Below, piece by piece: positions 2,931 to 11,362 of a DNA stretch of 11,854 bases. Position 1 is the stretch's first letter; every line of letters starts with the position of its first letter. The notes beneath the pieces were generated by a model. The model was not told the origin of the DNA. It was given only the letters and a program-made list of their open reading frames with translations, and did not search any database. The DNA is from J061 sp003695725 [NCBI: Candidatus Schekmanbacteria bacterium] (GTDB taxonomy: Bacteria; Schekmanbacteria; GWA2-38-11). Position numbers and translations under genes: made by a program. The DNA lies in assembly GCA_003695725.1 (NCBI GenBank), contig RFHX01000030.1:1-11854 (forward strand), written 5' to 3'.

Positions 2931-5888
2931 TCAGTGTTCATGTCCGCAATCGCAAGACGGCTTCCTGTTTTCTCCATACTTCTGTTCATTGCCATGATCA
3001 TTATGGCTGTGATTATGCCCATCGTTTTTATGAGAGGAATGTTGATGTTCTTCCTGATGATCATGGTCCTTATGGTTGTTATGATTGTGCATAGAATGTG
3101 CAGAATGGTCGTGTCCGCAACCACATTCATCATTATGAGTATGGCTTGAATGGCTATGAGAGTCGTGGTCATGGCTATGTTCGTGGTCATGATCGTGTCC
3201 TTCATGGCTGTGCGAAGAATGGTCATGTCCTGAATGGTCGTGGTCATGCCCGCAATCGCATGCGTCGGCGCATTCCTCGGCATGAGATTTTACTTCATTA
3301 ACTTCGTCCTTTCTTCTTTTGCCAAACCTCAACAGTCTCATTCCATTAAGAATAACTACAAGTGATGTACCTGTATCAGCCAAGACTGCAAGCCAAAGGT
3401 TTGCAAGCCCTGCAAATACAAGGACAAAAAACACAGCTTTTACGATAAGGGATATAGCAATATTTGCTTTTATTATTCCAAGCGACTTTCTACTCAGCTT
3501 CATAGTATAGGGGATTCTGAGCATATCATCAGACATCAAAGCTATATCAGCTGTTTCAAGTGCTGTATCGGTTCCTGCAACCCCCATTGCAATACCTACA
3601 TCTGCAGCGGCAAGAGCAGGCGCATCATTGATTCCCTCACCAACCATTGCAACGGATTTATATTTTTCTTTTAACTGCTTGATAACAGAAACTTTATCCT
3701 GCGGCATTAGTTGAGCTTTGCACTCTGTGATCCCGATCTGATTGGCAACTGCTTCAGCAGTCTTTGGATTGTCCCCAGTAAGCATAACAACTTCTTTGAT
3801 ACCAGCTTTTTTGAGCTCGGATACTGCCTGCGCGCTGTCCTCTCTAATCATATCCCTAAGGGCAATAACCCCTAAAACAGAATCAGAATCAGCAACAAAG
3901 AGAACAGTTTTACCTTCCGACTCTAGTCTTGAAACGATCTCGTCTGCTTCCTTGCTCAAAGAGCTTACTTTTTCATCAATAAGCCGCCTGCTTCCTATGT
4001 AATACATCTTGTTGTCAATCTCTGCCTGCATACCCAATCCAGTAAGCGCTTTAGATTTTTCGGTTTTAAAAAGAGTAAGTCCCATCAACTCCGCTTCTAT
4101 CTTTATTATCTTTCCAATGGGATGTTCTGAGCGTTGTTCAATGGAAGCAGCATATTTAAGGATGTCAGTATCATTCATTGCGCTCAAAGAAATGATATCC
4201 GTAATTCCCGCATGTCCTTTGGTGAGAGTGCCAGTTTTATCGAAGGCAATAGCTCTCACTCTTCCTGCTTCTTCAAGATGAACACCACCCTTTATCAAAA
4301 CTCCGTTTTTAGATGCATTTCCTATTGCAGAGACGATCGATACAGGCGTTGAAATGACAAGGGCGCAGGGACAAGCGATAACCAAAAGCATCAATCCCTT
4401 ATAAAACCATGTATTGAAATCAGCTCCAAATAGAAGGACCGGTACGCAAACTATCAGGAACGCAAAGATAATAACAGTGGGCGTATAATACTTCGCAAAG
4501 GCATCAATGAAAAGCTGAGAAGGTGCTTTCTGCGCCTGCGCTTCCTCTACGAGATGAATAATCTTCGATAGTGTAGTTTCCTCATAGGGCTTTGTAATTT
4601 CAACCTCAAGAGTGCCTGACCCATTGATGGTGCCTGCAAAAACTTCGCTTCCTTCTCTTTTTTCCGCCGGCACAGACTCTCCTGTTATCGATGCTTCATT
4701 TACCTCTGACTCTCCCTTCACAACCTTTCCATCCATTGCTATCTTTTCGCCGGGCAGAATTATCATTATTTCACCTACCTTTACATCAGTAACAGGCACT
4801 GAAATCTGATTTTCACCGCGTTGAATACGAGCTTCCTTAGGTGAAAGGTCCATTAGATAACGAATGGAATTTCTGGTCTTATCCATTGTGTAGTTTTGAA
4901 GCACATTACCAAGAGAAAAGAGAAAGACTACCATTGCGCCTTCTTCCCATTCGCCTATGAATACTGCGCCCAAAATTGCGATAGTCATCAAGAAGTTCAT
5001 ATCTATGGTCTTATATCTCAGGGCGCTTATTCCGGCACGAGCAACATAGAAGCCTCCAACCAGCATTGCAGCGGCATAAAATCCGATCTCTGCAGGCTCT
5101 ATGCCGAGAAACTGAAAAACATATGCAAGCGCTATTAGAATGCCGCATATTACAGTGGTTACGGCTTTCCTGTCGTTCTTTATCCATCCCCAAATAGATG
5201 TGCTTGTTTCTGTTTGCTCTGAAAGTGGAAATGCAGTATATCCAGCCCTGTCCACAAGATGCATTATCTTATCTATCATTCCTGCTTTTTCACTGTATTT
5301 CACTGTCATTCTTGAAAGATTGAAATCTACCCAAGCATCTTCCACTCCCTCGAGATTGCTAAGTTGGCGCTCAAGCTTTACTGCGCAGTCCGCGCAATCC
5401 ATTCCTCTAACATTGAATGTCATTTTGCGGCTTGCTATAGAATATCCTGCATCCTTTACACGGTAGCCGAATGATTTGATGACAGAGATAATTTCTGAAA
5501 GGGAAACTGCATCATGTCTAAATTCCGTATACATCTTCGATGCGGCATAGTTTACTGAGCACCAATCGATACCTTCAAGTTTATTCACTGCGCTTTCTAA
5601 TTTTGCCGCACAATCTGGACAATCGAGTCCTTCCAACTCTAATGTATCGTGACGAAAGCGCTTCTCTATTTCAGCGCCTTCTTTTTTTACTATGTTTCTC
5701 AAAAAATTGACTTCAATGAGATTTGGATCATAGACAATTTTTATACTCTCCGAATTATCAATAAAGGATACCTCTTTTATTCCTTTGATTGTTGAAAGCT
5801 TCTCTTCAAGGCGCTTTTCACATCTTCTGCAATCATTTCCATTTATGGGATTTGCTATAACTTCATTTTTCTTCAATGTCTGCGTCAT
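2931..5888 (-). CDS. zntA: Zn/Cd-class P1B-type metal-exporting ATPase with three HMA domains and His-rich tail
   Basis: ATP-driven efflux pump of the inner membrane, P1B-2 type (Zn2+, Cd2+, Pb2+). Order in the 985 residues: three ferredoxin-like metal-binding domains with CxxC at C20-C23, C90-C93 and C165-C168; transmembrane helices from about 243; actuator TGES 402-405; membrane metal site C506-P-C508; phosphorylation site D550-KTGTLT; SEHP ending at H589-P590; TGDN 704-707; hinge motif 750-757; then K817 and D838 (ADTG), the pair that marks the ZntA-like subgroup rather than the copper pumps. The pump core ends near 854 and is followed by about 130 extra residues, mostly a His-rich tail. 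The hinge reads GEGINDAP instead of the usual GDGxNDAP. The ATG has a good AGAGGT ribosome site. It lies 69 bp after the ArsR-type gene and has its own operator and -10 element. Total length is well above the usual 650-800 residues. Confidence 0.96.
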   Translation of the reverse strand: MTQTLKKNEVIANPINGNDCRRCEKRLEEKLSTIKGIKEVSFIDNSESIKIVYDPNLIEVNFLRNIVKKEGAEIEKRFRHDTLELEGLDCPDCAAKLESAVNKLEGIDWCSVNYAASKMYTEFRHDAVSLSEIISVIKSFGYRVKDAGYSIASRKMTFNVRGMDCADCAVKLERQLSNLEGVEDAWVDFNLSRMTVKYSEKAGMIDKIMHLVDRAGYTAFPLSEQTETSTSIWGWIKNDRKAVTTVICGILIALAYVFQFLGIEPAEIGFYAAAMLVGGFYVARAGISALRYKTIDMNFLMTIAILGAVFIGEWEEGAMVVFLFSLGNVLQNYTMDKTRNSIRYLMDLSPKEARIQRGENQISVPVTDVKVGEIMIILPGEKIAMDGKVVKGESEVNEASITGESVPAEKREGSEVFAGTINGSGTLEVEITKPYEETTLSKIIHLVEEAQAQKAPSQLFIDAFAKYYTPTVIIFAFLIVCVPVLLFGADFNTWFYKGLMLLVIACPCALVISTPVSIVSAIGNASKNGVLIKGGVHLEEAGRVRAIAFDKTGTLTKGHAGITDIISLSAMNDTDILKYAASIEQRSEHPIGKIIKIEAELMGLTLFKTEKSKALTGLGMQAEIDNKMYYIGSRRLIDEKVSSLSKEADEIVSRLESEGKTVLFVADSDSVLGVIALRDMIREDSAQAVSELKKAGIKEVVMLTGDNPKTAEAVANQIGITECKAQLMPQDKVSVIKQLKEKYKSVAMVGEGINDAPALAAADVGIAMGVAGTDTALETADIALMSDDMLRIPYTMKLSRKSLGIIKANIAISLIVKAVFFVLVFAGLANLWLAVLADTGTSLVVILNGMRLLRFGKRRKDEVNEVKSHAEECADACDCGHDHDHSGHDHSSHSHEGHDHDHEHSHDHDSHSHSSHTHNDECGCGHDHSAHSMHNHNNHKDHDHQEEHQHSSHKNDGHNHSHNDHGNEQKYGENRKPSCDCGHEH
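2934..3284 (-). repeat. Low-complexity His/Asp/Ser-rich coding tract (tail of the metal ATPase)
   Basis: This part encodes residues 869-985 of the pump. It contains 35 histidines in 117 residues, mostly in HDHDH, HSH and GHDH units. Three copies of a seven-residue motif C-x-C-G-H-[D/E]-H are spread along it: CDCGHDH at 877-883, CGCGHDH at 922-928 and CDCGHEH at 979-985, the last forming the exact C-terminus. The DNA is repetitive (ATGGTCGTG-like units on the plus strand), so the length is likely to vary between strains through slippage. The expected role is cytoplasmic metal binding; this is inference from composition. Confidence 0.85.
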
Positions 5889-5893
5889 TTTTT

Positions 5894-5899
5894 ACCTCT
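5894..5899 (-). promoter_or_regulatory. Ribosome binding site of the metal ATPase gene
   Basis: AGAGGT on the minus strand ends five bases before the ATG at 5888. It is one of the two clear Shine-Dalgarno sequences in the window and fixes the start of the ATPase. Confidence 0.7.
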
Positions 5900-5917
5900 A
5901 TCATATTTGTAAAATTG

Positions 5918-5940
5918 ATTATATGAACAATTCTTCATAT
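5918..5940 (-). promoter_or_regulatory. ArsR/SmtB-type operator overlapping the -10 element of the ATPase promoter
   Basis: The plus strand at 5921-5940 reads ATATGAACA-AT-TCTTCATAT, an inverted repeat with a single mismatch to the perfect arrangement TGAACA-N2-TGTTCA. On the minus strand a consensus -10 TATAAT lies at 5918-5923 and overlaps its edge; no good -35 precedes it. A bound repressor would cover the -10 element. The half-site is the same as in the operator upstream of the ArsR-type gene and is the known recognition sequence of SmtB/CzrA/ZiaR-like sensors. Confidence 0.7.
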
Positions 5941-5957
5941 ATTGAGAGCAAAAAAAA

Positions 5958-6347
5958 TTAATCGTGTTCTATATGCTTCAATCCTTCTTCAAAAAGATTC
6001 AAAACATGTTCATCATCCAAAGAATAATAAATGATTCTCCCTTTTCGTCTATTTTTAACCAGTCTCAATGACCTCAAAATTCTCAATTGATGAGATATAG
6101 CAGAAGGGCTCATACCAAGAAGGCTTGAAATATCACATACACAAAACTCTCCAAGGGATAGGGCATAAAGAATCTTAACCCTTGTCGCATCTCCCAATGC
6201 CCGATACAATTCAGCCAATTCTATCACTTCTGTATCAAGAAGCATCTTTCTCGAAGCCTTTTCCACCTTATCCTTATCGATAAGATGAGTTTGGCATTGG
6301 GAATCAGACAAATCTATTTCTTCTTTCTTTTTTATTTTATTAGCCAT
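5958..6347 (-). CDS. ArsR/SmtB-family metal-sensing transcriptional repressor
   Basis: Winged-helix repressor that leaves its operator when it binds metal. Residue numbers here count from a TTG at 6359; the ATG at 6347 (residue 5) is chosen because neither start has a ribosome site and ATG leaves a sensible leader. The core ELYRALGDATRVKILYAL is typical, and the recognition helix is MSPSAISHQLRILRS (83-97). Two possible metal sites are visible: the alpha-5 site D116, H118, H129, H132, with the same spacing and ligand types as CzrA (D84, H86, H97, H100), and an alpha-3N-like site C22, H25, C73, C75, where EFCVCD matches the CadC signature ELCVCD. The C-terminus HIEHD ends right after the alpha-5 site. 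The gene lies upstream of the pump in the same direction and has its own operator, so autoregulation and control of the pump are likely. Cognate metal: Zn or Cd by inference. Confidence 0.95.
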   Translation of the reverse strand: MANKIKKKEEIDLSDSQCQTHLIDKDKVEKASRKMLLDTEVIELAELYRALGDATRVKILYALSLGEFCVCDISSLLGMSPSAISHQLRILRSLRLVKNRRKGRIIYYSLDDEHVLNLFEEGLKHIEHD

Positions 6348-6370
6348 AATTTTGATCAAAGCAATTAACT

Positions 6371-6394
6371 ATATTTGAACATATGTTCATATAT
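6371..6394. promoter_or_regulatory. Palindromic SmtB/CzrA-type operator of the ArsR-family gene
   Basis: The core TGAACATATGTTCA at 6376-6389 is a perfect 14-bp palindrome. The symmetry continues outward for four more base pairs on each side after one mismatch, giving ATAT...ATAT arms across 6371-6394. It lies about 25-45 bp upstream of the ATG and matches the 12-2-12 operators described for SmtB, ZiaR and CzrA. It is a better match than the second site near 5930, so tighter binding here is expected. Confidence 0.85.
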
Positions 6395-6411
6395 CGAAAT
6401 ATTTTTGTCAA
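6383..6411 (-). promoter_or_regulatory. Promoter of the ArsR-family gene (-35 TTGACA, -10 inside the operator)
   Basis: On the minus strand a perfect -35 TTGACA lies at 6406-6411. A 17-bp spacer leads to GAACAT at 6383-6388, only 3 of 6 to the -10 consensus and lying in the operator palindrome. The -35 is clear; the exact -10 is not. The layout means that a bound repressor blocks polymerase. The -35 begins 26 bp past the stop of the upstream cysteine-cluster gene, so the metal unit has a promoter of its own. Confidence 0.55.
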
Positions 6412-6436
6412 GTATTAATTTATTTTTTTCAAAAAT

Positions 6437-6739
6437 TCAATATTGAAAATAATAACCGCACCTTCCTCCTACATCTTCAATATCTCTTTCATCTATAGGG
6501 AAAAGACGACAGCTTAGCGGTCTGCCTTTCTTATAAATTCTGCACGAAAGTTGATTTCCGCTTTTATCAAGCAATGGACATTTAAAGCTCATTTCACAAC
6601 ATTTGCCGCACTGAAGACATTTTCCTCGCCTTCTCTTCAATTGCTCTTCAACATATCTTTTCTTGAAACGGACAAGAAAATACCGTCTGACAGTGCCTTT
6701 AAAAATCCATGCCCTTTGGATAATTTCCTTCGTTGTCAT
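6437..6739 (-). CDS. YkgJ-type cysteine-cluster protein (putative Zn/Fe-chelating domain)
   Basis: Small cytoplasmic protein of 100 residues with eight cysteines, C41, C44, C47, C48, C54, C66, C77 and C94. The block CLQCGKCCEM at 41-50, then KCPLL and later SCRIY and LSCRLFP, is the signature of the YkgJ/UPF0153 family, annotated as binding zinc or an iron-sulfur cluster; no defined reaction is known to me. The N-terminal 40 residues are strongly basic and aromatic (RRYFLVRFKKRYVEEQLKRR), which could contact nucleic acid or membrane; this is inference. The ATG at 6739 has only a weak GGAC upstream. It reads in the same direction as the sensor-pump pair, but a separate operator-promoter lies between them, so a link to metal resistance is only suggested by position. 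Confidence 0.82.
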   Translation of the reverse strand: MTTKEIIQRAWIFKGTVRRYFLVRFKKRYVEEQLKRRRGKCLQCGKCCEMSFKCPLLDKSGNQLSCRIYKKGRPLSCRLFPIDERDIEDVGGRCGYYFQY

Positions 6740-6816
6740 TTATATATGAGTCCATTTAAAGTGAAAAATAATCAATAATAATTTTTGCTTGTTTAAATAA
6801 CTACTATATACGCAAT

Positions 6817-6843
6817 TTGTCAAGAGAGACAATTTTTATTGTC
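6817..6843. repeat. Overlapping inverted repeats TTGTC/GACAA (alternative hairpins)
   Basis: TTGTC (6817-6821), GACAAT (6828-6833) and ATTGTC (6838-6843) are three alternating arms. The middle arm can pair either with the left one (5-bp stem, loop AAGAGA) or with the right one (perfect 6-bp stem, loop TTTT). Outer copies of TTGTCAA begin 22 bp apart, about two helical turns, which also fits paired protein-binding sites. The elements are short and the region is AT-rich, so chance cannot be excluded. Confidence 0.35.
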
Positions 6844-6872
6844 AAAATCGTGGATTTAGAAATCATATCGTA

Positions 6873-6898
6873 TAGAGTGGTGATTTAGAGTGGTTATT
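6873..6898 (+). repeat. 13-bp tandem duplication
   Basis: TAGAGTGGTGATT (6873-6885) is followed directly by TAGAGTGGTTATT (6886-6898), 12 of 13 bases identical. A related GTGGATTTAGA precedes it at 6850-6860. It lies about 130-160 bp upstream of the predicted promoter of the giant gene. It could be an activator site or a replication-slippage duplication; nothing decides between them. Confidence 0.4.
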
Positions 6899-7028
6899 CT
6901 CTCTTACCCCCATTGAAGAATCTATGAAATAGAAATTTATCACAAATCAATATGGTCTTTACAGTCAAGCTCAACAATGAGTGATGAGGATAGATCCTTT
7001 GAAAACTAATTTTTTTGAAAGATATGAT

Positions 7029-7057
7029 TTGACAGATGAATTTATTGAAATAATAAT
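7029..7057 (+). promoter_or_regulatory. Sigma70-like promoter of the giant activase gene
   Basis: TTGACA at 7029-7034 (6/6 to consensus), a 17-bp spacer, and AATAAT at 7052-7057 (5/6). The start of transcription would be near 7064, giving a leader of about 87 bases before the ATG. The leader is T-rich and shows no stable hairpin or riboswitch-like structure that I can see. Confidence 0.6.
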
Positions 7058-7134
7058 CTAACTTACTTATTATTTATATAGCTTTTTTATTCTATTTTTC
7101 TATATTTTAATTTTTTCTCTGTCTCCATTGCAAG

Positions 7135-7141
7135 GGAGGGG
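7135..7141 (+). promoter_or_regulatory. Ribosome binding site of the giant activase gene
   Basis: GGAGGGG lies nine bases before the ATG at 7151. This is the strongest Shine-Dalgarno sequence in the window and fixes the start, which also agrees with the conserved GIDIGS nucleotide-binding loop beginning at residue 13. Confidence 0.8.
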
Positions 7142-7150
7142 AATCTGGCT

Positions 7151-10100
7151 ATGATTCGTAAGGATGGAGAAGGGTGTTATTTCGCGGGAATAGATATTGG
7201 TTCGATTTCTGTTAATGTAGCGCTTCTCAACGAAAAAAAAGAAATAATCAAAACTTGGTACCGCCGCTTTCACAGCCATCCAATATCTACAGCAAAAGAA
7301 ATTTTAAAGGAAGCCATATCTTTGTCTCCCAATTCAAAAATAGCCCTATCTGCAACAGGCAGCGGCGGAAAATTAATCAGCAAAGCTCTCGATGTCTTCT
7401 TTTTAAACGAAGTAGTTGCACAGGCAAAAGCTACAGCGCACTTCTACCCCGAGGCAAAAACAATCATAGAAATGGGGGGACAAGATTCGAAACTGATTCT
7501 CATTGAAAATACAATCAACGGCAATGGCTTTAAGATAACTGATTTTGCAACAAATACAATCTGCGCCGCAGGTACCGGCTCCTTTTTAGACCAACAGGCG
7601 AATCGCCTAGGAATTTCCATTGAAGATGAGTTTTCAGAGTTGGCTTTAAAATCAGAAAAGCCGCCCAGAATTGCAGGCCGCTGTTCCGTTTTTGCAAAAA
7701 GCGATATGATTCATCTCCAGCAGATTGGCACCCCTGATTACGATATTGTAGCAGGTCTATGCTACGCCGTTGCAAGAAATTTCAAAAGCAATATTGCCCG
7801 AGGCAAAGAGTTTATCAAGCCCGTTGTTTTTCAAGGAGGAGTTGCAAGCAATAGAGGAATGGTAAAGGCATTCCGCGACATCTTAGAATTGAATGAAGAA
7901 GAATTCATAGTTCACAAATACAATTCAGTCTCAGGCGCAATTGGATCAGCACTGATTCTCTTTGAAGAGAAAGATGAAAATATAAGGTATATAAGTGAAG
8001 AAGAACTTGAAAAATTGAATGAAAAACTAACAGCACTTGAATCAAAACATTTGCCTCCATTGAGTTTGGACAAAAGTGTTTATCTTCACAATCCAAACTA
8101 TCGCTATCCAATCGAAGAAAAAGCCAAAAATGGAAATGGGAAAATAAAGGTGTACCTTGGAATAGATGTCGGTTCAATAAGCACAAATGTAGTGGCAATA
8201 GATGAAAATGGAGAAGTAGTGGCACGCCGCTACCTGATGACAGCTGGAAGACCTATCGAGGCAGTACGCAGAGGACTTGAAGAAATTGGTAATGAGGTAG
8301 GCGATTATGTAGAAGTTGCAGCTGTTGGAACGACAGGTTCAGGAAGATATTTGACAGGAGATTTAGTTGGCGCTGACATCGTTAGAAACGAAATAACGGC
8401 TCAGGCAAAAGGGGCGGCAGCTATTGACCCCGAAGTTGATACGATCTTTGAAATTGGGGGACAGGATTCGAAATACATCAGTCTTACAAACGGTGTTGTT
8501 TCCGATTTCGAGATGAATAAAGTCTGCGCAGCAGGCACCGGATCATTTCTCGAGGAGCAAGCAGAAAAGCTCAATGTAAATATCAAGGAAGATTTCAGCA
8601 AAGTTGCCCTCTCGTCAAAAGCGCCTGTCAAACTTGGTGAAAGATGTACAGTTTTCATCGAATCAGACATTGTCAATCAACAGCAGAAGGGAACAGCAGG
8701 AGAAGACATAGTTTCAGGACTTTCTTATTCCATAGTCTATAACTATCTAAACCGGGTGGTTGGAAACAGAAAAATAGGGAATAAGATTTTCTTTCAAGGG
8801 GGTGTAGCATATAACAAAGGCGTAATTGCGGCATTCGAGAAGGTGCTCAATAAAAAAATAACTGTGCCTCCTCATCACGATGTAACTGGTGCAATAGGAG
8901 TCGCCCTCCTTGCAAAAGAAAACGCTCCTGAGAAGAGCGCTTTTAAGGGCTTTGACCTTTCCAAACGGCAATACACTGTTAAAACCTTCGAATGTAAAGA
9001 TTGCAGCAATCTTTGTGAAATCAGAATGATTAAGATGGAAGGCGAAAAACCGCTCTTTTACGGTTCACGGTGTGAAAAATATGATGTAGACCGTAAGAAG
9101 AAAGACACAAATTTAAAAAACTACTTCAACCTCAGAGAAGAATATCTTCTAAACTCAGGCATTCATAGTATGCCCAAGAAAAAAAGAAAAAGAGTGGGTA
9201 TCCCGCGAATTCTTTATTTCTATGAATTGTTTCCTATGTGGAAAGCCTTCTTCGAAGAGCTTGGTTGTGAAGTCGTTCTCTCATCTCCTACAAACAAATC
9301 AATCATAGAAAGAGGTGTTGAAAATGTTGCGGCAGAAACCTGTTTTCCCATCAAAGTAGCGCATGGACATATCTTGGATTTGTTGGGAAAGGATATAGAT
9401 TACCTTTTTCTGCCAAGTGTTATAAGTCTTTTCAGAGAAAATCAGTCTTTTCGCGAAAATCATACCTGCCCTTATGTGCAGGCATCACCTTACATAATCA
9501 ATGCTTCATTGAACCTTGATAAAAAAAATATCGATCTGCTTCAGCCAGTATTTCATCTTCAAGGCACAGACAACCAGATTAGCAAACCCTTCAAAGAAAT
9601 AGGAAAAAAACTCGGTGTTTCACTCAATGACTATCTGCAAGCTTATCGGGTTGCTATGGATGTGCAAAAAAGATTCTATTCAAACCTTGCTAATTTAGGC
9701 AAAAAATTCCTCGACTCATTGAAAGAAGACGAAAAAGCTCTTGTCATCGTAAGCAGGCCTTACAATGGATTTGATTCGTCAATCAATTTAGGATTGCCTG
9801 AAAAACTTTGCTCCCTTGGGGTAAGGACAATTCCGATGGATTTTCTCCCGTTGAACAGCACAGACATATCTCCTTATCATCCGAATATGTATTGGAAGTC
9901 AGGACAAAGGATTCTCTCTGCGGCGCAATATATTAGAAACCATCCAAACCTCTTCGCCGTTTATATTACCAATTTTGGATGCGGACCAGATTCATTCATC
10001 AGTCACTTCTTTGCCGACATTATGAAAGGTAAACCCTATCTGCAGATAGAAATCGATGAACACAGCGCAGATGCAGGCGTAATTACAAGATGTGAGGCTT

Positions 10101-11362
10101 TCCTCGACAGCCTTGAAAACTATAAACAGAAAACTCCTGCTTCTGTTCGCGCAAGACAAATGATACTAAAACACCTAAAAAATCGAAAACATACCATCTT
10201 TATTCCAAATATGACTGACCACGCCTATGCTATCAAGTCGGCATTCAATTATAATAATGTAGATGCCGAAGTCATCGAGGAATCCGACGATGAAACTGTT
10301 CAACTTGGAAGACAATTCACATCAGGCAAGGAATGCTATCCCTGTATCCTGACAACAGGAGACCTTTTCAAAACAATCAAAAAATCGGGTCTCCCACCGG
10401 AAAGAATAGCCTTTTTTATGCCGTCGGCAGAAGGTCCTTGTAGATTTGGACAGTATCACCAGTTTCAGCGTCTCCTTTTAGATGAAAACGGATACGAAAA
10501 TGTCCCCATCTATTCATTAGAACCCGAAAAATCCTATAGCGACGAAGTATTCGGAAAAGACTTTGACCTTCTTGCATGGGAAGGAATCATTGCCATCGAT
10601 ATCCTCGAAAAAGCCGCAAGGGAAACTCGTCCTTATGAAATAAATAAAGGTGAAACCGATGAGGTCTATCAGCATTGTTTAAGGTATATAACCAATATAC
10701 TAAAATGCAACGGAGACATTGCGCGAGCTCTTGAAATCTGCAGAAAAGAATTCGAAGCAATAAAGGTTGAAAAGAAAAATGGACAAAAACCAAAAATTGG
10801 AATTGTGGGAGAAATCTATATTCGCAGTAACCGTTTTGCCAATCAAAATATTGTGAAAAAAGTTGAAGAATTGGGCGGTGAAGCATGGGTAGCACCTTTG
10901 AGTGAATGGTTCCTGTACAGCAATTATGTCTATAAGAAGAGAAAGCTATTCAGGAAACAATATAAGAATTTACTGAAAACCCATACGAAGGATAGGATTC
11001 AGAAGCTCCTTGAACACAAACTTTACAAAACCTTTGAAGGCTTTCTTGAAAATGGAGATGAGCCGGCTACAGAAACCTTGATAGAGCAGAGCAAAAAATA
11101 TTTAGACCCTTCCTTCGATGGAGAAGCAATACTGAGCGTTGGTAAGGCAATCGATTTTGCAAAAAGAGGATTAAAGGGGATTATCAATGCAATACCCTTC
11201 AGCTGTCTGCCGGGCACAGTGGTAACAGCCATATCAAAAAAACTCAGCGAGGATTTTGGAAATATTCCTTGGCTCAATATTTCATTCGATGGAATGGACG
11301 ATACAGGCACAGAGAATCGGCTCGAGGCATTTATTTATCAAGCCAAAGATTTCAAGGGATAA
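7151..11362 (+). CDS. Giant acyl-CoA dehydratase activase-related protein (two BcrAD/BadFG modules plus dehydratase-like half)
   Basis: A 1403-residue cytoplasmic protein of the 2-hydroxyacyl-CoA dehydratase activator superfamily, in which ATP hydrolysis by an ASKHA fold drives a low-potential electron from a 4Fe-4S cluster to a partner. Module 1 (about 11-272): GIDIGS, GGQDSK 109-114, C138-AAGTGSF and GRC178SVF. Module 2 (about 335-588): GIDVGS, GGQDSK 436-441, C459-AAGTGSF and ERC499TVF. Both keep the two cluster cysteines with the same 40-residue gap. A four-cysteine patch follows (C615, C618, C622, C641), then a DUF2229-like region from about 681 (AETC731FPIKVAHGH) and a dehydratase-like region with C944-GPDSF, GKEC1062-YPC1065, AEGPC1097 and a conserved end, SFDGMDDTGTENR. 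Neither half is truncated. No separate dehydratase subunits, CoA enzymes or ferredoxin lie beside it, so the substrate is unknown. Relatives include YjiL/YjiM and double-cubane cluster proteins. Confidence 0.95.
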   Translation: MIRKDGEGCYFAGIDIGSISVNVALLNEKKEIIKTWYRRFHSHPISTAKEILKEAISLSPNSKIALSATGSGGKLISKALDVFFLNEVVAQAKATAHFYPEAKTIIEMGGQDSKLILIENTINGNGFKITDFATNTICAAGTGSFLDQQANRLGISIEDEFSELALKSEKPPRIAGRCSVFAKSDMIHLQQIGTPDYDIVAGLCYAVARNFKSNIARGKEFIKPVVFQGGVASNRGMVKAFRDILELNEEEFIVHKYNSVSGAIGSALILFEEKDENIRYISEEELEKLNEKLTALESKHLPPLSLDKSVYLHNPNYRYPIEEKAKNGNGKIKVYLGIDVGSISTNVVAIDENGEVVARRYLMTAGRPIEAVRRGLEEIGNEVGDYVEVAAVGTTGSGRYLTGDLVGADIVRNEITAQAKGAAAIDPEVDTIFEIGGQDSKYISLTNGVVSDFEMNKVCAAGTGSFLEEQAEKLNVNIKEDFSKVALSSKAPVKLGERCTVFIESDIVNQQQKGTAGEDIVSGLSYSIVYNYLNRVVGNRKIGNKIFFQGGVAYNKGVIAAFEKVLNKKITVPPHHDVTGAIGVALLAKENAPEKSAFKGFDLSKRQYTVKTFECKDCSNLCEIRMIKMEGEKPLFYGSRCEKYDVDRKKKDTNLKNYFNLREEYLLNSGIHSMPKKKRKRVGIPRILYFYELFPMWKAFFEELGCEVVLSSPTNKSIIERGVENVAAETCFPIKVAHGHILDLLGKDIDYLFLPSVISLFRENQSFRENHTCPYVQASPYIINASLNLDKKNIDLLQPVFHLQGTDNQISKPFKEIGKKLGVSLNDYLQAYRVAMDVQKRFYSNLANLGKKFLDSLKEDEKALVIVSRPYNGFDSSINLGLPEKLCSLGVRTIPMDFLPLNSTDISPYHPNMYWKSGQRILSAAQYIRNHPNLFAVYITNFGCGPDSFISHFFADIMKGKPYLQIEIDEHSADAGVITRCEAFLDSLENYKQKTPASVRARQMILKHLKNRKHTIFIPNMTDHAYAIKSAFNYNNVDAEVIEESDDETVQLGRQFTSGKECYPCILTTGDLFKTIKKSGLPPERIAFFMPSAEGPCRFGQYHQFQRLLLDENGYENVPIYSLEPEKSYSDEVFGKDFDLLAWEGIIAIDILEKAARETRPYEINKGETDEVYQHCLRYITNILKCNGDIARALEICRKEFEAIKVEKKNGQKPKIGIVGEIYIRSNRFANQNIVKKVEELGGEAWVAPLSEWFLYSNYVYKKRKLFRKQYKNLLKTHTKDRIQKLLEHKLYKTFEGFLENGDEPATETLIEQSKKYLDPSFDGEAILSVGKAIDFAKRGLKGIINAIPFSCLPGTVVTAISKKLSEDFGNIPWLNISFDGMDDTGTENRLEAFIYQAKDFKG

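Follow-up and report, generated by a model that had tools for sequence, protein, structure and literature searches.

Nitrogenase-like ATP-driven reductases are multi-protein systems. Class I benzoyl-CoA reductases (BcrCBAD, BzdNOPQ and MbdONPQ) combine two unlike activator subunits with two HGD-D-like subunits, distributed over four separate chains, and their catalytic subunit carries an open [4Fe-4S] cluster held by three cysteines. In PMC11971306, the ligands of this open cluster in BzdO are Cys95, Cys128 and Cys380, and BzdN is given an [8Fe-9S] double cubane in which six irons are cysteine-bound. The systems HgdABC and HadBC-HadI also pair an ATP-driven activator with two three-cysteine [4Fe-4S] subunits; their activator is homodimeric and separate, and their substrate is known. 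According to PMC11574389, each subunit cluster of a 2-hydroxyacyl-CoA dehydratase (HAD) uses three protein cysteines and the activator cluster takes two per monomer. Two YjiL ATPases and a DUF2229 domain in one polypeptide were described in 2024 from metagenome-assembled genomes of Ruminococcus and interpreted by the authors as a BcrCBAD-related acyl-CoA reductase (PMC11362221). Here we describe a gene at positions 7151-11362 (plus strand) of a contig from a Candidatus Schekmanbacteria bacterium, in which the activator, an ATP-powered electron booster, and its iron-sulfur reductase, usually separate proteins, appear to be joined in one chain. The window is the whole stretch analysed, 11,854 nucleotides long (G000:C30:1-11854), and belongs to an assembly of 2.77 Mb in 374 contigs that is 97.84% complete.

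The product proved to be self-contained, well conserved and a member of a known superfamily of enzymes, and its architecture had been noticed previously. It displayed the two unlike activator parts and two HGD-D-like parts of class I benzoyl-CoA reductases, in one chain instead of four, and its two units resembled the catalytic subunit of those enzymes in their three cysteines and differed from the six-cysteine BzdN. With the Ruminococcus fusion it shared two activator domains and DUF2229, whereas the second Hgd-D-like protein, a separate neighbouring gene in Ruminococcus (PMC11362221), was fused here. The features of the gene, all on the plus strand, were as follows.

7151..11362, plus strand: whole gene, a single open reading frame (ORF) of 1403 aa with ATG start, stop included
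7134..7141, plus strand: likely ribosome-binding site GGGAGGGG, 9 bases 5' of the ATG, read from the sequence
7178..7975, plus strand: activator module 1, residues 10-275 (PF01869; profile match to module 2 with E 2.2e-91)
7562-7564 and 7682-7684, plus strand: cluster cysteines C138 and C178 of module 1 (96/96 rows)
8147..8938, plus strand: activator module 2, residues 333-596 (PF01869, TIGR00241, model fits)
8525-8527 and 8645-8647, plus strand: cluster cysteines C459 and C499 of module 2 (96/96 rows)
8972..9085, plus strand: linker C615-x2-C618-x3-C622-x18-C641, residues 608-645, putative [4Fe-4S] or zinc site (conservation)
9188..10135, plus strand: COG3580-like unit holding DUF2229, residues 680-995, with C731, C773 and C944 (DUF2229, hhalign, fold)
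10172..11359, plus strand: COG3581-like unit, residues 1008-1403, with C1062, C1097 and C1352, proposed catalytic subunit (hhalign, cysteines, splits)

We take COG3580 and COG3581 to be the proper names of the two units. In a Pfam scan of the chain, PF01869 (BcrAD_BadFG) covered two stretches with E 3e-81, and residues 681-898 matched DUF2229 with E 1.6e-68. NCBIfam returned TIGR00241, the acyl-CoA dehydratase activase, again over two stretches (E 3.5e-98); BcrD was best on module 1 and BcrA on module 2, both far under their cut-offs. AlphaFold2 models of residues 1-1005 and 600-1403 reached predicted local distance difference test (pLDDT) scores of 86.4 and 88.1 and predicted template modelling (pTM) scores of 0.82 and 0.87, respectively; both were compared with the PDB. 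For folding, alignments A1 and A2 drew on 77 and 78, respectively, of 79 loci from the range L003-L082, after removal of any row in which gaps exceeded 60.

Conservation was counted in two alignments. The first, of 85 rows, comprised the window chain, all but one of the 80 loci from L003 to L082 (79 rows), and also L085, L087, L090, L096 and L097; the split gene of L049 was excluded and minus-strand ORFs were not part of it. The second comprised the window chain and 95 tandem ORFs (96 rows, the partial L091 not being among them) and extended to about 27-29% identity (L097, L096). L003 and L086, which link a genome of the same order to Candidatus Schekmanbacteria GWA2_38_11 by identical modules and show 62% identity to the window chain, very likely place the window in that phylum; they are probably one genome counted twice, both in the 96 rows and in the 86 neighbour loci considered below.

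The presence of two complete activator modules in tandem, with the cysteine pairs C138/C178 and C459/C499, had been proposed in the earlier note, and this observation was confirmed: PF01869 and TIGR00241 each matched twice, and all four cysteines were present in every row of both alignments (85/85 and 96/96). The nearest solved chains by sequence were MbdQ 9gai_D (E 5.3e-37), HgdC 1hux_A (1.1e-36) and HadI 4eht_A (1.2e-34), each with its best stretch on module 2. The model of module 2 superimposed on HadI 4ehu_B with Z 30.8 (257 residues, 2.0 A), on 9gai_D with 30.6 and on 1hux_A with 30.1.

ATP motifs were intact in both modules of the window chain, and the two modules differed in how strictly their relatives kept them. 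In module 2 the residues D339, G341, S342, G436, G437, Q438, D439 and K441 were found in 96/96 rows. Q111 of module 1 (7481-7483), within the GGQDSK motif, was E in 68 of the 96 rows, compared with an unvarying Q (96/96) at the equivalent position of module 2; D112 was replaced in nine rows and K114 in seven. Loss of ATP-binding residues from one module throughout close homologues, which the earlier note had looked to as a refutation, was not found, D112 being replaced only in L054 and L080 among the closer loci L003-L082. Farther away the motifs of module 1 were plainly decayed in several relatives (L088, L090, L093, L094, L095 and L097) and D112 was N in L092; these came from 15 further rows, of which three belong to the same family or order as the window. 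C138 and C178 were retained even where the ATP motifs of module 1 had decayed. The nearest relative of module 1 was 67% identical to it, as against 83% for that of module 2, and module 1 seems to evolve faster.

A tree was built with a quick method from 28 of the 96 module pairs, to which 16 single activators out of 17 were added. In it module 1, module 2 and the single activators each grouped on a single side of a branch (support 77, 97 and 100, respectively). Several module-1 rows, L088 among them, formed long branches of unsure placement. On this tree modules 1 and 2 are two lineages, with support for module 1 of only 77, and their order was 1-2 in 95/95 tandem ORFs.

A module that has lost its nucleotide site and kept its cluster ligands would be expected if its cluster were shared with module 2. 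Because the cysteine pair of module 1 outlasts its ATP motifs, the alignments favour an internal pseudo-dimer with one cluster shared by modules 1 and 2. The internal pseudo-dimer of the earlier note thereby gained indirect support, from the constant module order, the two lineages and, above all, the persistence of these cysteines. The bridging cluster might instead lie between modules of two different chains, in a domain-swapped or 2:2 arrangement. In known activators the cluster forms between two polypeptides (PMC11574389); the invariant order and the asymmetry of the modules suit a fixed pair of module 1 with module 2, although a swapped pair would keep that combination too. We regard the two-chain arrangement as improbable, though not negligibly so.

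Between the pump and the reductase lies the linker, whose four cysteines C615, C618, C622 and C641 were invariant (85/85 and 96/96 rows). In some distant rows their spacing was altered and the four cysteines were still there; in the AlphaFold2 models short strands surrounded them. The conservation suggests that the linker is perhaps a further metal site. A structural zinc site without electron transport has close to an even chance: no iron-sulfur family matched the linker at threshold, the Pfam scan giving none and the NF038196 ferredoxin of NCBIfam scoring only 17 bits where 75 is the cut-off. The cysteines are nevertheless kept in 96/96 rows, between ATP pump and reductase in the window chain and its aligned relatives, and the other invariant cysteine sets of the chain align with iron-sulfur ligands. 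The linker had no hhalign match to the HGD-D alignment, a difference from HgdABC and HadBC-HadI. Molybdop_Fe4S4 (PF04879), with a similar order of cysteines, was tried as a model for the linker and was not supported: its hhalign E of 0.46 was no better than that of control families, in a weak test with short profiles, without a positive control, and with 17 sequences chosen by their cysteine pattern.

The partner units were compared by hhalign with 40 HGD-D proteins and 16 control families, using unit slices of a 79-sequence alignment as queries. The COG3580-like unit matched the HGD-D alignment with E 8.6e-9 (probability 95) and the COG3581-like unit matched over its full length with E 4e-4 (probability 15%); against the control families neither unit did better than E 0.13. 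In both units the three invariant cysteines aligned on three HGD-D cysteines, each of which was kept in 39/40 rows of the HGD-D proteins. Homology is firm for both modules as members of the activator family and for the COG3580-like unit as an HGD-D relative, but weak for the COG3581-like unit. C731, C773 and C944 were present in all rows (85/85 and 96/96). C1062, C1097 and C1352 were present in 85, 84 and 84 of the 85 rows. In the larger alignment they stood in 91, 90 and 90 of the 96 rows, the remainder there being gaps except for one G at C1097. Five rows account for the gaps at C1062, namely L089, L092, L098 and L099, whose ORFs end before the unit, and probably L049, which is split there; the extra gap at C1352 probably belongs to L065, where the match stops at residue 1334.

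The unit at about residues 648-991 of the 600-1403 model fitted best on 3o3m_D, which we take to be HadC (Z 15.0; 268 residues, 3.9 A), followed by DCCP (7yzm_A, Z 14.0, and 6eno, 13.9), BzdN (8s02_B, 13.8), BzdO (8s2r_C, 11.2) and 3o3o_A, presumably HadB (10.9). The names of the BzdN and BzdO chains were assigned from the lengths given in PMC11971306. With HadC and BzdN fitting better than BzdO and HadB, the modelled fold points to the COG3580-like unit as the electron-relay subunit. Cysteine spacings were 42 and 171 in this unit and 35 and 255 in the COG3581-like unit, compared with 33 and 252 in BzdO. Since both three-cysteine sets match the ligand sets of HGD-D, BzdO and HAD, the likeliest arrangement, as read from the aligned ligands, would be two open or semi-open [4Fe-4S] sites, one per unit.

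The activator and partner fold is also common to the chain and DCCP/DCCP-R, and one alternative is small-molecule reduction at an [8Fe-9S] cluster, as in a double-cubane protein. The Z scores of 7yzm_A and 6eno fell only about one unit under that of HadC, and Foldseek ranked 6eno first. A double-cubane protein was nonetheless rejected as a model: it needs six cysteines per subunit, as judged from the six cysteine-held irons of BzdN (PMC11971306), and each unit here displayed three invariant ones, the double-cubane ligand set not being found in the chain. We consider this alternative very unlikely.

Natural splits of the gene also bear on the two units. L049 was divided into ORFs of 994 and 384 aa; in G035 adjacent ORFs spanned 35-988 and 1014-1397, and G023 was similar; in G014 the COG3580 and COG3581 parts lay on different contigs. 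These splits fall between the two units, as expected if the COG3581-like part is a subunit. G048 was cut elsewhere, its DUF2229 unit standing alone in a 319-aa ORF. The dehydratase-like partner that the earlier note had placed in the C-terminal half is on the chain, in a description that was incomplete, as the division into two HGD-D-like units and the four-cysteine linker had been missed; overall its interpretation was partly supported.

From these results we infer the pseudo-dimer, the electron path, the cluster types and the choice of the catalytic unit. Modules 1 and 2 would pack against one another to form an asymmetric pseudo-dimer, with one bridging [4Fe-4S] cluster held by C138, C178, C459 and C499. 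Binding and hydrolysis of ATP, in which module 2 provides the site that is always intact, would lower the potential of this cluster and drive electrons one at a time into the [4Fe-4S] cluster of the COG3580-like unit (C731, C773, C944). From there they would pass to the [4Fe-4S] cluster of the COG3581-like unit (C1062, C1097, C1352), whose fourth iron would be open to substrate. The linker between pump and reductase may hold a possible fourth cluster, for example an entry port for ferredoxin electrons. We assign a probability of about 0.72 to the chain being a single-chain member of the superfamily of 2-hydroxyacyl-CoA dehydratases and class I benzoyl-CoA reductases that works by this mechanism.

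Several results weigh against this assignment. The match of the COG3581-like unit to HGD-D had an hhalign probability of only 15%, and direct hhalign comparison with the COG3580-like unit gave no match (E 0.69). PF06050 matched neither the chain (E up to 1) nor the COG3581 part alone (E up to 10). The structural matches of the 600-1403 model mainly covered the COG3580-like unit, so that the fold of the other was barely tested, and none of the listed VIA-align matches of this model covered the COG3581-like unit in full length. Cysteine spacing in the COG3580-like unit was unlike that of BzdO. Pointing the other way, PF06050 touches relatives within the family, with E 6.4e-7 and 3.2e-5 for the split ORFs in G048 and 2.3e-4 for a 1430-aa ORF in G057, and DUF2229 weakly touches the COG3581-like unit, with E 0.0026 in the window chain and 3.3e-6 in G035. 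Also against the assignment, four of 14 control genomes, those of Thermus composti, Deinobacterium chartae, Thermotoga maritima and Lactococcus lactis, also carried DUF2229. Thermus, Deinobacterium and Lactococcus are not strict anaerobes, and the presence of the domain in controls that grow in air is odd for an oxygen-sensitive enzyme.

No separate dehydratase had been seen near the gene, and the statement now extends to the whole assembly, in which PF06050 had no match at E 0.001. At the same threshold PF01869 matched only the two modules of the chain and no other activator. Among the matches listed, all four genomes of the order contained the full-length protein, without PF06050. One of them, G001, displayed a second fused paralogue (a 1455-aa ORF, G001:C7:321707-326029), and second, shorter DUF2229 ORFs were seen in G002 (G002:C11:89044-89655, 788 aa) and G003 (G003:C63:8112-8720, 820 aa); the genome of the window has one member only. 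The family, described as widespread from the outset, counted at least 458 confirmed relatives among 581 stretches listed, from many phyla, and DUF2229 was above cut-off in 28 of 60 genomes.

The search of homologue neighbourhoods for a shared pathway, suggested in the earlier note, yielded no constant partner gene: the commonest neighbour family occurred at 12 of the 86 loci, 43 of which had at least 2 kb on both sides. Where 500 bases of sequence flanked the gene on each side (66 loci), 25 loci had a same-strand ORF no farther away than 100 bases downstream or 150 upstream, and the gene thus often, though not always, stands by itself. Because it occurs in many phyla without a constant partner, we lean towards a core, low-flux reduction, at somewhat less than even odds. 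A catabolic acyl-CoA enzyme, either a 2-hydroxyacyl-CoA dehydratase or an aryl-CoA reductase, would suit the superfamily and agree with the acyl-CoA role proposed for the Ruminococcus fusion (PMC11362221); the lack of a constant neighbour speaks against it, and we hold it to be rather unlikely.

Three genes upstream of the reductase in the window were annotated from Pfam scans of the window copies:

2931-5888, minus strand: P-type ATPase for heavy metals, carrying three HMA domains plus a long tail rich in His
5958-6359, minus strand: ArsR-type regulator
6437-6739, minus strand: small Cys-rich YkgJ-like protein (Pfam match just below cut-off)

The same set adjoined the reductase in G001 and G002, two genes intervening in G002. 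In G001, a genome of the same family (L153, G001:C3:93500-111500, gene at 3551-11231 on the minus strand), hemC, cobA/hemD and hemB followed about 45 bases on, on the same strand. A general link to tetrapyrroles was discarded, as blastp at 1e-5 against the ORFs at the 86 neighbour loci returned no hemC, cobA/hemD or hemB. A Rex-type operator 5' of the gene, an idea taken from a Lactobacillus paper, was likewise dropped: with up to three mismatches allowed, the window held 10 matches where 7.83 were expected, and none lay in 6740-7150. A 370-aa lone activator of module-1 type adjoined the fusion in L067 (Candidatus Eisenbacteria, about 10150, plus strand), apparently a partial duplicate. At L004, L006, L007, L009-L012, L015, L024 and L063 a same-strand downstream gene encoded a membrane protein that, as judged from sequence, looks like a sodium-pumping decarboxylase beta subunit.

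The architecture is that of a widespread family, and a fusion of two ATPases with DUF2229 is already in print (PMC11362221). In few-term searches of open-licence PMC full text, neither the fully fused chain nor the linker cysteines came up. What is added here is that the partner consists of two units, that the four linker cysteines are invariant, that the modules are asymmetric and that the assembly lacks partners. A bolder and rather doubtful extension would see a one-polypeptide low-potential reductase with four [4Fe-4S] clusters in series, namely linker port, bridging pump, relay and open catalytic site, driven by an asymmetric pump with one module perhaps serving just as holder of the cluster while the other spends ATP, and serving a core reduction common to many anaerobic phyla, not a catabolic pathway. 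Common as the family is, the open-licence literature yielded one passage on the fusion. A one-chain reductase whose parts occur in a fixed ratio would make a simple model for electron gating and for reactions at very low potential.

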